Source: Aquisalimonas sp. (lineage in GTDB: Bacteria; Pseudomonadota; Gammaproteobacteria; Nitrococcales; Aquisalimonadaceae). Taken from it: a stretch of 64,000 nucleotides of DNA. Each line of letters starts with the position of its first letter. Position 1 is the first letter of the stretch. The stretch spans positions 1-64,000 of the forward strand of contig NZ_SKOG01000145.1 of NCBI RefSeq assembly GCF_007120195.1, written 5' to 3'. A model generated the notes under the pieces. It saw nothing but the letters and a program-made list of their open reading frames with translations. It did not search any database and was not told the origin of the DNA. Positions 42,713 through 51,029 of this stretch are shown in pieces. Both the position numbers and the translations under genes were made by a program.

Positions 42713-44713
42713 TCAACTCCCCAGTACGGTGCGCGCCTGGGCGAGGACGTTCTCGGTGGTAAAGCCGTAGTACGCGAACAGATCGCCCGCCGGCGCGGAC
42801 TCGCCGAAACCGGTCATGCCCACGACGCGACCCTGGGGGCCGACAAACCGGTACCAGTATTCAGCGGCAGCGGCCTCAACGGCAACGCGTCGGGTGCAGG
42901 CCTGAGGCATAACGGCCTCCCGGTACTCCGCGTCCTGCGCCTCGAACACATCCACCGCCGGCATGGAGACAACCCGCGCGGGCACACCGTCGGCGCGCAG
43001 CTGGTCCCAGGCCTCCACGGCCAGAGCCACTTCCGCCCCGGTGGCGATCAGCAGCAACTCCGGCGTGGCGTCACAGTCCCGCAGAATGTAACCCCCACGC
43101 CGGATGGCCTCCAGCTGCCCGCTGGTGCGCTCCTGGTGAGGAAGGCCCTGGCGGCTCAATACGAGCGCCGTCGGGCCCTCCTTTCGCTCCAGGGCGGCAC
43201 GCCAGGCGACCACCGTCTCAACCGCGTCGCAGGGCCGCCAAAGACTCAGGTTGGGAATCATCCGCAGCGCGGGGAGGTGTTCTATGGGCTGATGCGTGGG
43301 TCCATCCTCGCCCAAGCCTATGGAATCATGGGTGTAGACGAGCACATTGCGCTGTCCCATCAGCGCTGCCATACGTACCGCATTGCGGGCATAATCCGAG
43401 AAAACCAGGAAGGTGCCTCCGTAGGGAATAAACCCGCCGTGGAGCGCCAGCCCGCTCTGGATGGCCGTCATGGCAAATTCCCGCACACCGTAGAAGACGT
43501 AGTTGCCATCGCCGTCGCGCGCCGTCACAGGGGTACACCCGGACCACTTGGTATTGTTGGAGCCGGTCAGGTCAGCGGAGCCGCCAATGAGTTCCGGCAG
43601 GTACGGGCCGAACCCCTCCAGGGCCTGTTGCGAGGCCTTGCGGCTGGCCACGGTTTCGCCGGCGTCGGCCGCCTTGCGCAGGAGCTCGTCGGCATGTTCT
43701 CCGAACGTGCGCGGCAGCTTACCCCTCATTCGGCGTTCGAACTCCGCCGCCAGTTCGGGGTGGGCGCGGCGGTAATCCGCCAGCACCTGCCGCCAGGCGT
43801 CCTCGGCGGCCACTCCCGCCTCGCGGGCATCCCACCCCCGGTAGATCGCCTCGGGGACCTCAAACGGCGCATGCTCCCACTTGAGAAACTCACGAGTCGC
43901 CTGAATCTCGTCATCCCCCAGCGGTGCACCGTGGACGCTGTGACTACCGCAGGCATTGGGCGCGCCGAAACCAATCACGGTCTTGCAACAGACCAGGGAG
44001 GGTGTATCCGTGACTTCGCGGGCCGCGCGGATGGCGGTATCGATGGCCTGACTGTCGTGGCCGTCCACATCCGCGATGACATGCCAGCCGTAGGCGCGAA
44101 AACGCCCGGGCGTATCGTCCGTGAACCAGCCCTCGACCTTGCCGTCGATGGAGATGCCATTGTCGTCGTAGAAGACCACCAGCTTACCCAGGCCCAGGGT
44201 TCCCGCCAGGGAGCAGGCCTCGTGGGAAATTCCTTCCATCAGGCAGCCATCTCCGGCGAAACAGTAAGTAAAATGATCAATCAACGTGTGCCCAGGGCGG
44301 TTAAACTGCGCCGCGAGCACCTTCTCCGCCAGCGCCATGCCCACGGCATTGGCGAGCCCCTGTCCGAGCGGGCCGGTGGTCGTCTCCACACCCGGGGTAT
44401 AGCCGTACTCCGGATGTCCGGGTGTGCGTGAGTGGAGTTGCCGGAACTGTCGCAGGTCATCCAGCCCCAGTTCGTAACCGCTCAGATGCAGCAGACTGTA
44501 CAGCAGCATGGAACCATGACCATTGGAGAGCACGAACCGGTCGCGATTCCACCAGCCCGGATTGGCGGGATTATGGCGCAGATAATCGTTCCACAGAACC
44601 TCAGCGATGTCCGCCATACCCATCGGCGCGCCGGGGTGGCCCGATTTCGCCCGCTGGACAGCATCCATGCTCAGGGCGCGGATGGCATTGGCAAGTTCGC
44701 GACGAGAGGGCAT
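42713..44713 (-). CDS. tktA: Transketolase
   Basis: [65 protein letters not shown]; start placed at MPSRREL. Confidence 0.95.
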
Positions 44714-45381
44714 CGGTGATGGTCTCCGGGTAGCAAGTAGGGACGGCAGCAGCTGTGGCGGCCGCCGGGCGCTCTGAAAGCCGTGAATTGTCCCGAAATT
44801 TGATGGCTCCGGCAAGGCGGCCCCGGGCCCGCCGACCGGCCGCCGGATGGAGTGAAATCTCCATGGCGGATTGGCGTCGCAGGGGCAAAGAAGGTTGAAA
44901 TCCTCGCAGAACACGATACGTTAGGGGGAAGCAAATGACGCGGAGCAGCACGTAAAGATAGAGATGTCGCAAGCCTTTCGCCCCGCACTGGCGCTCGTCA
45001 TAGCACCTGACGTCCCGTGCGTGGGCTCAACGCACCGCATTGGCAAGGCAATGGCGTTGCGTGCCTTCGGGCCGCCGGAGTCGGATAACCTGCATCCCCA
45101 GGTGTTCTCATCCTTCTCTGCGGCCAACTAACCAAGAGTTCTTGTAGTGCGGTTGGCTTCTAGCATGAAGCACCGTGAAATGTCCGCAGACTGCACACCG
45201 CCAGCGCAGTCTGTGCCACGTGCTGTGCAGCTGCTGCAAGGCGAGTCTGCAGGTTGGAGGATGACGAGATGTGCTCCAAACGCTCCGGACCGAGGGCTGG
45301 CTACGGGCGCCAAGATCATCGGGACGGCCGGGCTCGGGCGTGCTGCGCGTACTTTATCCCTGGACGGTGGGAGGTAACACC

Positions 45382-46191
45382 ATGGTTTCAACAGCAACAG
45401 ATCAGTCTTTCGGCCCGAGGCCGGAGGAGTGTCGTGACACAGACCATTACGTTGAAGAGTACAATTACGGCTTCGTCGACAAATGGGATGACCTGATCGA
45501 CTGGGACAGCCGCGCCGAGAGCGAGGGCGACTTTTTCATCCAGATGCTCAAGGAGCGGGGCGTCAAGCGCGTCCTCGACGTCGCCACCGGCACCGGCTTC
45601 CACTCCGTGCGCCTGATCGAGGCGGGCTTTGACGTGGTCAGTGCCGACGGCAGCGCGGAAATGCTGGCCAAAGCCTTCGAGAACGGTCGCCGCCGCGGGC
45701 ACATCCTGCGGACCGTACAGTCCGACTGGCGCCGTCTCAACCGGGATGTCCACGGCCGTTATGACGCCGTCATCTGCCTCGGCAACTCCTTCACCCACCT
45801 GTTTAGCGAGAACGACCGCCGCAAGTCGCTGGCGGAGTTCTACTCCGCACTCAACCACGACGGCGTATTGATCCTGGACCAGCGCAACTACGACTCGATC
45901 CTGGATCACGGCTACTCGAGCAAGCACACCTACTATTATTGCGGCAATGATATCTCGGTCTACCCCGAGTACGTCGATCCGGGGCTGACCCGTTTCCGCT
46001 ATGCCTTCCCGGACGAGTCCGTGTTCCATCTGAATATGTTTCCGCTGCGCAAGGCGTACACCCGCCGTCTCATGCGCGAAGTCGGGTTCCAGGATGTGCA
46101 GACCTACGGCGACTTCAAGGAAACCTACCGCGACAGCGAACCGGATTTCTTCATTCACTTCGCCGACAAGAGCTATACGGAGAACGCCTAA
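45382..46191 (+). CDS. Glycine/sarcosine N-methyltransferase (GSMT)
   Basis: Class I methyltransferase (VLDVATGTGFHSVRLIEAGFDVVSADGSAEML), YVEEYNYGFVDKWDDLIDWDSRAESEGDFF; directly followed by SDMT; RBS GGGAGG. Confidence 0.92.
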   Translation: MVSTATDQSFGPRPEECRDTDHYVEEYNYGFVDKWDDLIDWDSRAESEGDFFIQMLKERGVKRVLDVATGTGFHSVRLIEAGFDVVSADGSAEMLAKAFENGRRRGHILRTVQSDWRRLNRDVHGRYDAVICLGNSFTHLFSENDRRKSLAEFYSALNHDGVLILDQRNYDSILDHGYSSKHTYYYCGNDISVYPEYVDPGLTRFRYAFPDESVFHLNMFPLRKAYTRRLMREVGFQDVQTYGDFKETYRDSEPDFFIHFADKSYTENA

Positions 46192-47030
46192 TGAGTACCC
46201 AGAGCTATACCGGTGCCGTCGCCACGGCCCGGGAGTACTACAACAGCAACGATGCCGACCGCTTCTATCACAATGTCTGGGGCGGCGAGGACATCCACAT
46301 CGGCCTGTACGAGGACGACCAAGAACCCATCGCTGACGCCAGCCGGCGCACGGTGGCCCACATGGCCGATCTGCTGGGCGAGTTGGGGCCGGATCATCGC
46401 GTGCTGGACCTGGGTGCCGGCTACGGCGGTTCCGCCCGCTACCTGGCCACCACCTTCGGCTGCCCAGTGGTGGCGCTCAATCTCTCGGAAGTGGAAAATG
46501 AGCGCGACCGGGAGATGAACAAGGCGGTCGGCTTGGATCACCTGATCGAGGTGCTCGATGCCAGCTTCGAGGACGTCCCATATGCGGACGGTCACTTTGA
46601 CGTGGTGTGGTCGCAGGACTCCTTTCTGCACAGCGGCGACCGTGAAAAGGTCGTCCAGGAGGCGGCACGCGTGCTGAAACCAGGCGGCGTGCTGATCTTC
46701 ACCGATCCGATGCAAACAGACGACTGCCCGCAGGGTGTGCTGCAGCCCATTCTTGATCGCATCCACCTGGAGACCCTTGGCTCACCGGCCTTCTACCGCG
46801 AGACGGCGAAGAAGTACGGGCTGGTGGAAATCGGTTTCGAGGATCACTCGCACCAGCTACCGCGACACTACGGGCGCGTGCTGCAGGAAACCAAGGCCCG
46901 CGAACCCAGCCTCGAGGGTCTGATCTCCGCGGAGTATATTGAGCGAATGAAGACCGGACTGCAGCATTGGGTCAACGGTGGCAACAACGGTTACCTGGCA
47001 TGGGGCATCTTCCGTTTCCGCAAGGCGTAA
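46191..47030 (+). CDS. Sarcosine/dimethylglycine N-methyltransferase (SDMT)
   Basis: YYNSNDADRFYHNVWGGEDIHIGLYEDDQEPIADASRRTVAHMADLL, VLDLGAGYGGSARYLATTFGCPVVALNLSEVENERDREMN, WSQDSFLHSGDREKVVQEAARVLKPGG. Confidence 0.93.
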   Translation: MSTQSYTGAVATAREYYNSNDADRFYHNVWGGEDIHIGLYEDDQEPIADASRRTVAHMADLLGELGPDHRVLDLGAGYGGSARYLATTFGCPVVALNLSEVENERDREMNKAVGLDHLIEVLDASFEDVPYADGHFDVVWSQDSFLHSGDREKVVQEAARVLKPGGVLIFTDPMQTDDCPQGVLQPILDRIHLETLGSPAFYRETAKKYGLVEIGFEDHSHQLPRHYGRVLQETKAREPSLEGLISAEYIERMKTGLQHWVNGGNNGYLAWGIFRFRKA

Positions 47031-47038
47031 TGCCGCGG

Positions 47039-47068
47039 GGCGCGCCGGTGTTCCGGTGCCGGCGCGCC
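47039..47068 (+). promoter_or_regulatory. Perfect 10-bp-stem hairpin in SDMT-metK spacer
   Basis: GGCGCGCCGG-TGTTCCGGTG-CCGGCGCGCC. Confidence 0.6.
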
Positions 47069-47112: not shown

Positions 47113-48273
47113 ATGAGCAAGTCCTTCATGTTTACCTCGGAATCCGTCTCCGCCGGCCATCCGGACAAGATGGCGGACCAGATATCCGACGCCATCCTGG
47201 ATGCCATCCTGGAACAGGACCCCCGCGCCAAGGTGGCCTGCGAGACGCTGACCACGACCGGCATGGTGATTCTCGCCGGGGAGCTGAAAACCTCGGCCAA
47301 TGTGCCTTACGAGGACATCACCCGCGCGACCGTCAAGCGCATCGGCTACACGTCCTCGGACATGGGCTTCGACGCCGAAACCTGCGCCTTTATTAATGCG
47401 CTGGGCAAACAGTCCCCGGACATCAACCAGGGCGTTGAGCGCAAGCTCCCCGAGGAGCAGGGTGCCGGCGACCAGGGCATTATGTTTGGCTACGCCTGCG
47501 ACGAGACCGACGTCTACATGCCTGCGGCCATCAACTATGCCCATCGCCTTGTGGAGCGGCAGGCCAAAGTGATGAGCAACGGCGCGCTTCCGTGGCTGCG
47601 CCCGGACGCCAAGAGCCAGGTGACCCTGCGCTACGAAGACGGCAAGGCCGTGGGGGTGGAGGCCGTGGTGCTCTCCACCCAGCACTCACCGGAGGTCAGC
47701 GATAACGAGATCCACGAGGGGGTTATCGAGGAAATCATCCGGCCGGTGCTGCCGAGCCAGTGGCTCAGCAAGCACACCCAGTATTTCATCAACCCGACCG
47801 GGCGCTTCGTCACCGGCGGGCCGTTGGGTGACTGCGGGCTGACCGGGCGCAAGATCATCGTCGACACCTACGGCGGCATGTCGCGCCACGGCGGCGGCTG
47901 CTTCTCCGGCAAGGACCCCTCCAAGGTGGACCGGTCCGCCGCCTACGCCGCACGTTACGTCGCCAAAAACATTGTCGCCGCGGGCCTGGCCGCGAAGTGC
48001 GAGATCCAGCTGTCCTACGCCATCGGCGTGGCCGAGCCCACCTCTGTCATGGTCGAGACCTTCGGCACCGCGAAGGTGGATGAGAGCCGCATCGAGCAGA
48101 TCGTGCGCGATCAGTTCGACCTGCGTCCCTACGGCATCGTCAACATGCTGGACCTGCTGCGCCCGATCTACTCCAAGACTGCGGCCTATGGTCATTTCGG
48201 CCGCGAGGAAGAGGAGTTCACCTGGGAGCGCACCGACCGTGCCGCTGCACTGCGGGATGCCGCCGGCCTCTGA
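47113..48273 (+). CDS. metK: S-adenosylmethionine synthetase
   Basis: [90 protein letters not shown]. Confidence 0.97.
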
Positions 48274-48404: not shown

Positions 48405-48479
48405 TCCGGCTGAGGAGCGTTGCAACAGGCCCATGGTCTGCCAGGCTCAGCCGGATCCCAATTCACATCAACGGCGCTC
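48405..48479 (+). ncRNA. S-adenosylhomocysteine (SAH) riboswitch, leader of ahcY
   Basis: P1 TCCGGCTGA/TCAGCCGGA perfect pairing (48405-48413/48447-48455); conserved GAGGAGCGTTGCAAC...GCCAGGCTC core; 3' AACGGCGCTC (48470-48479) pseudoknot partner of GAGCG; located 23 nt before the ahcY start. Confidence 0.92.
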
Positions 48480-48501
48480 AGCGAAATCGGAGTCAGCACC
48501 A

Positions 48502-49908
48502 ATGAATGCCGTCGTAGAGAGTCAGAACGACTACATCGTGCGTGACATCGGCCTCGCTGAATGGGGCCGCAAGGAAATCGAGATTGCCGAGACCGAGATG
48601 CCCGGCCTGATGTCGGTGCGCGAGGAATTCCGTGCCAAGCAACCCCTGAAGGGCGTGCGTATTGCCGGGTCGCTGCACATGACCATCCAGACCGCCGTGC
48701 TCATCGAGGCCCTCGTGGAACTGGGCGCGGACGTTCGCTGGGCCTCGTGCAACATCTACTCCACCCAGGACCACGCCGCCGCCGCCATCGCCAAGCGCGG
48801 CGTGCCGGTGTTCGCCTACAAAGGCGAGACCCTGGACGAGTACTGGGAGTACATCCACCGCATCTTCGACTTCGACCAGGGCGCGAACTCCATCCTCGAT
48901 GATGGTGGCGACGCCACAACCCTGCTGACGGTCGGGGCCAAGGCCGAACAGGACCCCTCCTTCCTGGACCATCCGGGGAGCGAGGAGGAAAAGGCCCTGT
49001 TCACCAGTATCAAGGCGCGGCTTGAGACCAATCACGGCTGGTACAGCAAGCAGCTGAGCCAGATCCAGGGTGTCACCGAGGAGACCACCACTGGCGTTGC
49101 CAAACTGCTGCGCATGGAGCGGGCCAACGCGCTGCCGTTTCCGGCCATCAACGTCAACGACTCGGTCACCAAATCCAAATTCGACAACCTGTACGGTTGC
49201 CGCGAGTCGCTGGTGGACGGCATCAAGCGCGCCACCGACGTGATGATCGCGGGCAAGATTGCCGTGGTGTGCGGCTACGGTGACGTCGGCAAGGGCTCTG
49301 CGCAGAGCCTCAAGGCCATGGGTGCCACAGTCTGGGTCACCGAGATCGACCCGATTTGCGCCCTGCAGGCCATGATGGCTGGCCTCCAGGTCGTCACAAT
49401 GGACGACGTCGCCGACAAGGCCGACATCTTTGTCACCGCCACCGGCAACTACCACGTGATCACCCACGAACACATGCTACGGATGAAGCACAACGCCATC
49501 GTTTGCAACATCGGTCACTTCGACAACGAAATCGACGTAGCGAGCTTGCGCAACTACGAGTGGGACAACATCAAGCCGCAGGTCGATCACATCACCTTGC
49601 CGAGCGGCCACAAGATCCTGCTGCTGGCCGAGGGCCGCCTGATCAATCTCGGCTGTGCCACGGGCCACCCCAGCTTCGTAATGTCCAATTCGTTTACCAA
49701 CCAGGTGCTCGCACAGATCGAGCTGGCGCAGAATCGCGACAGCTACGAACATAAGGTCTACGTGCTGCCCAAGCACCTGGACGAGAAGGTGGCAGAGCTG
49801 CACCTGAAGAAGCTCGGTGCCAAACTGACGCAACTGTCCAAGGAGCAGGCCGAGTACCTTGATCTGGACGTGAATGGCCCGTTCAAGCCGGACACCTACC
49901 GGTACTGA
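48502..49908 (+). CDS. ahcY: Adenosylhomocysteinase
   Basis: [98 protein letters not shown]. Confidence 0.97.
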
Positions 49909-49975
49909 GCGAGCGCCTTTCGGTCCTTCGGCCCACCCGGCGCGGCGCTGGTGACAGCGCCCGGGACGGGTGGCG

Positions 49976-50010
49976 CGCCGGTGCGCGAACAACCCGCCCG
50001 CGCACCGGCG
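49976..50010 (+). promoter_or_regulatory. Perfect 12-bp-stem hairpin in ahcY-metF spacer
   Basis: CGCCGGTGCGCG-aacaacccgcc-CGCGCACCGGCG, 26 nt before metF ATG. Confidence 0.6.
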
Positions 50011-50035
50011 GTACTCGCGATACGGGGGTGATGAT

Positions 50036-50914
50036 ATGGAATCCCAGAAGAAACACTCACCGGTCTACAGTTTCGAGTTCTTTCCGCCCAAAAATGAGGA
50101 GGGCGAGGAGCGGCTGCGCCGGACCCGCGAGCGCCTCACCGCACTGGGGCCGCGGCTGTTTTCCGTCACGTTTGGCGCAGGCGGATCCACGCGCGAGCGT
50201 ACGTTCGAGACGGTTTTGACCATTCAGAGGCGCTCCGGCATTGATGTGGCGCCGCATCTGTCGTGCATTGACGCCACACCTGCGAGCATCCGTGAACTGC
50301 TGCAGCGCTACCGCGACAACGGCGTTCGGAATATCGTCGCCCTGCGTGGCGACATGCCCTCCGGCACCGGCGGTGGCCCCGGCCACTTCAAGTATGCCAA
50401 CGAGCTCGTGGAGTTCATCCGCCAGGAGCACGGCGACTACTTTCACATTGAAGTGGGCTGCTATCCGGAGATTCACCCGGACGCGAAGGACGCCTTTGCC
50501 GATCTCGAGAACTTCCGACGCAAGGTCAATGCAGGCGCCGACAGTGCGATGACCCAGTATTTCTATGCGCCTGAAGCCTACTTCCGGTTTGTCGACAGCT
50601 GCGAGAAGATGGGCGTCGACATCCCGATTGTTCCGGGCATCATGCCGATCGTCAATTTCAAGCAGCTGGCGCGTTTTTCCGACGCCTGCGGTGCCGACAT
50701 TCCGCGCTGGCTGCGCAAGCGGCTGGAAGCGTTCGACGACGACGACAAGGCGTCCATGCAGGCCTTCGGTATCGATGTTGTCACCCAGCTATGCTCGGAC
50801 CTCCTCGAGGCCGGCGCCCCGGGGCTGCACTTCTATACCCTCAATCAGGCCAAGGCCAGTGAAGCCATTTGGCATAATCTCGGCCTCACCCGGCGAATGG
50901 CCAAGGCCGATTGA
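50036..50914 (+). CDS. metF: Methylenetetrahydrofolate reductase
   Basis: YSFEFFPPKNEEGEERLRRT, SVTFGAGGSTRERT, NIVALRGDMP, ADSAMTQYFYAPEAYFRFVD, PGIMPIVNF. Confidence 0.95.
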   Translation: MESQKKHSPVYSFEFFPPKNEEGEERLRRTRERLTALGPRLFSVTFGAGGSTRERTFETVLTIQRRSGIDVAPHLSCIDATPASIRELLQRYRDNGVRNIVALRGDMPSGTGGGPGHFKYANELVEFIRQEHGDYFHIEVGCYPEIHPDAKDAFADLENFRRKVNAGADSAMTQYFYAPEAYFRFVDSCEKMGVDIPIVPGIMPIVNFKQLARFSDACGADIPRWLRKRLEAFDDDDKASMQAFGIDVVTQLCSDLLEAGAPGLHFYTLNQAKASEAIWHNLGLTRRMAKAD

Positions 50915-50948
50915 TCCGGCCCTGTCGGGGCGCTAAGGTGCCAGACGC

Positions 50949-50981
50949 GTTTTCGGGGGACGGCCCAATGCCCCCGAAAAC
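50949..50981. terminator. Perfect 11-bp inverted repeat after metF (possible terminator/attenuator)
   Basis: GTTTTCGGGGG-acggcccaatg-CCCCCGAAAAC. Confidence 0.5.
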
Positions 50982-51029
50982 CTCATCACGTTCAGCACCG
51001 TGGCGAAGCACGAAGCCGGAGTTGCCGTC

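Follow-up and report, generated by a model that had tools for sequence, protein, structure and literature searches.

It is highly probable that a 64,000-nucleotide stretch of DNA from the halophile Aquisalimonas sp. (the window) encodes a glycine/sarcosine N-methyltransferase (GSMT) and a sarcosine/dimethylglycine N-methyltransferase (SDMT) and that this gene pair is a derived insertion next to metK, the gene for SAM synthetase. The five genes gsmt-sdmt-metK-ahcY-metF lie on the same strand, in the order of the GMT-DMT-MAT-SAHase-MTHFR cluster for de novo synthesis of glycine betaine, a salt protectant (Table 1). The left flank consists of pgk, epd, and tktA, all on the minus strand; the right flank has metK, ahcY, metF, and bioA on the plus strand and rsmE on the minus strand. 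The original prediction had described these flanks as pgk-epd-tktA and metK-ahcY-metF-bioA-rsmE, and profile matches and strands agree with it. It did not contain the SAH riboswitch, an RF01057 aptamer above the gathering score that ends 15 bp ahead of the ahcY start, or the conserved noncoding element upstream of gsmt. The gap between sdmt and metK measures 82 bp. Searches of the window found no tRNA, and the edges of the insert showed no long inverted repeat. The GC content over the insert is 59-63%, close to that of the right flank, and the base composition gives no sign of a recent foreign origin.

Table 1 Features of the betaine locus in the window
Feature	Position	Strand	Evidence
tktA, transketolase, left flank of the insertion	42713-44713	-	TIGR00232 960.8 bits; start read from sequence
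tktA start and upstream region, inherited left flank, common to relatives without the insert	44705-44820	.	weak nhmmer matches and aligned block
Promoter-like TTGAAA-N16-TACGTT, possible cluster promoter	44895-44922	+	five-genome alignment
Conserved noncoding element	44973-45150		nhmmer-related sequence upstream of gsmt
Candidate hairpin RNA (model R1) in the putative leader of gsmt, with the hairpin itself at 45069-45125	45044-45131	+	
gsmt, glycine/sarcosine N-methyltransferase, 269 aa	45382-46191	+	NF051855 498.8 bits; 5gwx
sdmt, sarcosine/dimethylglycine N-methyltransferase, 279 aa	46191-47030	+	NF041675 486.2 bits; Halorhodospira abdelmalekii SDMT
10-bp GC hairpin between sdmt and metK (GGCGCGCCGG/CCGGCGCGCC)	47039-47068	+	no clear T-run
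metK, SAM synthetase	47113-48273	+	TIGR01034 618.7 bits
SAH riboswitch upstream of ahcY	48406-48486	+	RF01057 69.1 bits, gathering 37
ahcY, adenosylhomocysteinase, start after riboswitch	48502-49908	+	TIGR00936 612.5 bits
metF, methylenetetrahydrofolate reductase	50036-50914	+	TIGR00676 343.8 bits

The gsmt gene starts with ATG preceded by GGAGGT, and its stop codon shares one base with the start of sdmt at TAATG, which bears out the predicted tandem of methyltransferase reading frames overlapping at 46191. The proposed family identities also stand. In the search of curated family models, GSMT matched NF051855 over its full length (3.5e-150, 498.8 bits), exceeding the cut-off of 350. SDMT matched NF041675 over its full length (4.2e-146) as its best model by about 400 bits, with 486.2 bits against a cut-off of 550. 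Among the seven SDMTs that were scored, only that of Halorhodospira passes this cut-off (560), and five others from gsmt-sdmt pairs likewise fall under it (452-473, with Ectothiorhodospira haloalkaliphila at 452). The window SDMT shares 68% identity with the Halorhodospira abdelmalekii enzyme and is directly paired with GSMT, as SDMT also is in the GSMT loci compared. The closest solved structures are MpGSMT from Methanohalophilus (5gwx, 437 bits) for GSMT and a putative SDMT (2o57, 247 bits) for SDMT. The ligand-binding and catalytic residues of MpGSMT are Tyr26, Arg43, Asn134, His138, Arg167, Tyr185, Tyr206, and Met218 (PMC5146677). All eight are kept in the window GSMT as Y27, R44, N135, H139, R168, Y186, Y207, and M219, and they are invariant across 12 relatives. 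By family, then, the first gene is a GSMT and the second an SDMT, and the two enzymes are predicted to act on glycine, sarcosine, and dimethylglycine; the substrate range of SDMT is taken by analogy because the NF041675 cut-off is missed. A link of the same pathway with betaine synthesis and with tolerance to salt has been described for the related Thioalkalivibrio versutus (PMC9062515).

Comparison with relatives supports a derived position for the pair. The divergent tktA / metK-ahcY arrangement is uninterrupted in the family outside Aquisalimonas (nine of nine genomes), and families elsewhere in the order and class have it too. In contrast, gsmt-sdmt adjoins tktA in this gap in 5/5 Aquisalimonas genomes, in one of which the contig ends ahead of metK. 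This supports an interrupted order that is of long standing in the genus and, at family level, derived, so that the insertion next to metK holds against an ancestral order, the result that was to have spoken against it. Across the order, loci without gsmt-sdmt read tktA / metK-[SAH riboswitch]-ahcY-metF. Since the riboswitch is present both with and without the insert, it predates the insertion. The sequence from 44705 to about 44820 is related to the tktA upstream regions of relatives without the insert, the individual matches being weak, and the sequence from about 45022 to 45150 is related to that upstream of gsmt in genomes G013 and G005, where gsmt-sdmt is placed elsewhere. The left edge of the insert would therefore lie between about 44820 and 45022.

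The junction at which the insertion was predicted appears to have been reached by gsmt-sdmt more than once. In another family, three lineages also carry gsmt-sdmt before metK there, namely Arhodomonas, WFHF3C12, and an uncultured bin in which epd-pgk is present and tktA was not found at the junction. Such recurrence could be read as an ancestral gsmt-sdmt at tktA/metK that the relatives lost, which we regard as very improbable. Trees of concatenated GSMT-SDMT set all three lineages apart from Aquisalimonas, AU tests reject a single gsmt-sdmt clade of Aquisalimonas with each of them (p 6e-4, 1.4e-4, and about 1e-85), and the uninterrupted loci across the order mostly have a common metK promoter motif. 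The rejection of one origin for these separate lineages argues for convergent placement. Moreover, the metK at the junction in Arhodomonas and WFHF3C12 belongs to the cassette clade of Ectothiorhodospira and Halorhodospira, and a gsmt-sdmt-metK unit has thus probably replaced the resident metK in these two. That such a unit also replaced metK in Aquisalimonas, by recombination at the tktA/ahcY flanks, is possible but clearly less probable than a two-gene insertion. In G013, which also has a resident metK, a gsmt-sdmt-metK unit lies elsewhere (L107), by uvrA, and the metK of this unit is the sister of Aquisalimonas metK (98/94); the Aquisalimonas protein also begins with MSKSF like that of the unit and unlike resident starts. 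However, Aquisalimonas metK groups within the resident copies of the family (99/96), a position in the cassette clade is rejected by AU (p 0.012), and the contig with the G013 unit is 8 kb long, comes from a fragmented metagenome-assembled genome, and could be misbinned. Transfer between this unit and Aquisalimonas may have run in either direction. Aquisalimonas ahcY likewise groups with the resident copies (SH-aLRT 100).

The two-gene insertion appears to have displaced or removed metK's own promoter. Of 18 uninterrupted loci, 16 have a TACA(A/C)T motif and a -35-like partner no more than 160 nt from metK, against 0/8 loci with sdmt directly upstream; these counts are descriptive rather than a statistical test, the loci being related to one another. 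As the resident-type motif is missing where sdmt precedes metK, the sole metK probably now depends on transcription from gsmt, a reading that we favor somewhat over its alternatives; metK could also be driven by promoters other than the type scanned. One alternative treats the arrangement as an accident of synteny: gsmt-sdmt would have settled in a safe gap with transcription and termination of its own, and a metK promoter would lie in the gap after sdmt or within sdmt. A strong GC hairpin follows sdmt in 3/4 Aquisalimonas, and under the insertion reading too it could end or reduce transcription before metK. We consider the accident unlikely, as gsmt-sdmt stands directly before metK in several independent lineages, the resident-type motif is gone, and the hairpin has no clear T-run. 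The stems in the sdmt-metK gap are perfect over 10-13 bp and differ in sequence (they occur in 2/3 of the others besides the window). We rejected this hairpin as a special feature: comparable stems in the ahcY-metF and metF-bioA gaps indicate that it is not specific. The perfect hairpins in these two gaps (49909-50035 and 50915-51029) measure 12 and 11 bp, respectively, and exceed shuffled sequences.

The promoter-like sequence at 44895-44922 is conserved in the alignment of five Aquisalimonas and, by its resemblance to the consensus, may be the cluster promoter; a consensus scan did not pick it up. A role of the displaced metK promoter as the present gsmt promoter was also considered, and was neither borne out nor contradicted by an alignment of tktA-metK gaps.

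Downstream of this sequence, an 88-nt block (45044-45131) shows conservation across seven genomes, five of Aquisalimonas and one from each of two other genera. In the alignment of these seven sequences, 91.9% of the cells are paired in a common structure, compared with 37-51% in slid controls, and 11 cells show compensatory changes against a shuffled mean of 3.9, this evidence coming mostly from the one comparison of Aquisalimonas with G013/G005. On the plus strand, 6/6 hairpins tested were more stable than their shuffles (z -3.1 to -4.2), whereas 3/6 were not on the minus strand. Stability in all on the plus strand only fits an RNA read in the direction of gsmt. The covariance model R1 gave one strong match per genome in the seven genomes, always about 240-270 nt before gsmt, and weak matches only elsewhere in 144 genomes; in other families, the matches had E 0.0025 or worse, and none was shown ahead of gsmt. 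In G013 and G005, where gsmt-sdmt is placed elsewhere in the genome, the element accompanies the pair.

No Rfam model (4227 models) matched the leader hairpin in a search of 701 bases, where the only result was a chance miRNA match outside the hairpin (19.3 bits vs 100). A glycine riboswitch was considered since the reverse strand contains CCGAAGGA...GCAA, but Rfam gave no match even with E values of up to 5 admitted, and only the plus strand yields a fold that is stable in every species. A small open reading frame was discarded because of one-base indels within the conserved block, and the palindrome ACCTG-N6-CAGGT was unsupported as a regulator site, with few other occurrences, and these patternless, in 2.1 Mb of loci. 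On the simplest guess, the hairpin, which lies some 250 nt ahead of gsmt, probably regulates the betaine cluster in cis. A more tentative proposal, which we hold to be possible rather than likely, is that the element represents a novel cis-regulatory RNA governing betaine synthesis. As a riboswitch or another type of leader, it would respond to glycine, betaine, SAM/SAH, or ionic strength, would travel with gsmt-sdmt, and, after the promoter displacement, would also control the sole SAM synthetase gene.

The arrangement in Aquisalimonas is of an already published type, here joined by evidence for repeated placement, promoter displacement, and possibly a new leader RNA. The cluster of osmolyte and SAM-supply genes that had been predicted is indeed present, but it is not new, having been published for related genera (PMC7824335). 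Imhoff et al. 2020 described GMT-DMT-MAT in Ectothiorhodospira and GMT-DMT-MAT-SAHase-MTHFR in Halorhodospira, the latter given as the only Gammaproteobacteria with the full set in that study of phototrophic bacteria (PMC7824335). The five genes of Halorhodospira agree with those of Aquisalimonas in identity, order, and orientation. However, Halorhodospira ahcY and metK belong to other lineages than the resident-clade copies of Aquisalimonas, and a search of the Halorhodospira clusters yielded no SAH riboswitch. These clusters also lack an adjoining tktA, and in several species a second copy of metK is retained by epd, whereas in Aquisalimonas metK is single, the riboswitch is present, and tktA forms the flank. 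Based on these differences, the five-gene order was probably assembled separately in the two genera. In the Halorhodospira family (L084-L088), the second metK lies apart from the betaine cluster and is probably a remnant of the old tktA / metK junction. The GMT-DMT-MAT clusters of Ectothiorhodospira and some Thioalkalivibrio (PMC7824335) resemble Aquisalimonas in having metK directly after gsmt-sdmt, and their gsmt-sdmt falls in the same large clade (100/100); they differ in lacking ahcY and metF, in carrying a cassette-lineage metK, and in lying away from the tktA junction in the loci read. Likewise, sams-sahh-gsmt-sdmt of Methanohalophilus portucalensis, whose GSMT and SDMT have both been characterized, links the methyltransferases with SAM synthetase and SAH hydrolase (PMC3176816), but this organism is an archaeon with a different gene order and unrelated flanks. 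The position of RF01057 before ahcY-metF matches the SAH riboswitch regulon, which has ahcY and metF as its core (PMC4239095), except that the regulated genes here lie within a betaine cluster and the riboswitch is older than the insertion.

Among the best 80 GSMT loci in the genome collection, metK is in the same locus in 28 and directly after sdmt in 23 by hand count, a sample weighted towards close relatives; this recurrent link supports a functional tie. Several other arrangements were observed. In Alloalcanivorax profundimaris (L126 881-9640), gsmt-sdmt is placed beside methyl-cycle genes at the other end of the block, after tktA / metK-ahcY-metF. Genomes of the Halorhodospira family, WFHF3C12, and Arhodomonas encode a second protein resembling GSMT, with 42-48% identity, at sites separate from gsmt-sdmt (L094 4323-5057, L096 7604-8320, L095 8620-9321, L099 8592-9383, and others), with no SDMT or metK match in the loci read. 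One family member has a second, very divergent metK, 51-53% identical (L090, G006:C13 1640-2815).

The catalytic steps of GSMT, SDMT, MetK, AhcY, MetF, and MetH are known for their families, and SAH is a product inhibitor of many methyltransferases. The genome searched holds a single metK match, one metH on another contig, four BCCT transporters, and one full-length ectoine synthase along with fragments. The full-length copy is on C13, and the fragments (G000:C234 271-552 and C151 108-233) are possibly degraded or split copies. In the model that we propose, gsmt-sdmt would have entered between tktA and metK with its own leader region in an ancestor of Aquisalimonas. GSMT would convert glycine to sarcosine and dimethylglycine, and SDMT would convert sarcosine/dimethylglycine to betaine, consuming three SAM per betaine overall, with SAM supplied by MetK next door. 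The SAH released would open the riboswitch before ahcY-metF and raise AhcY and MetF, by which SAH would be removed and methyl-THF made for methionine regeneration, and MetH, encoded elsewhere, would close the cycle. With its own promoter displaced, metK would probably be transcribed from that of gsmt; the hairpins between genes perhaps set relative levels, and the leader hairpin would probably exert cis-acting control. We infer co-transcription, coupling by transcription, and salt regulation from this arrangement.

The repeated, independent placement of betaine genes before the SAM synthetase gene argues for SAM supply as a genuine bottleneck in betaine synthesis. In Aquisalimonas, an essential housekeeping gene, metK, has seemingly lost its promoter to an osmolyte cluster, and the conserved leader hairpin makes regulation of the betaine pathway testable.
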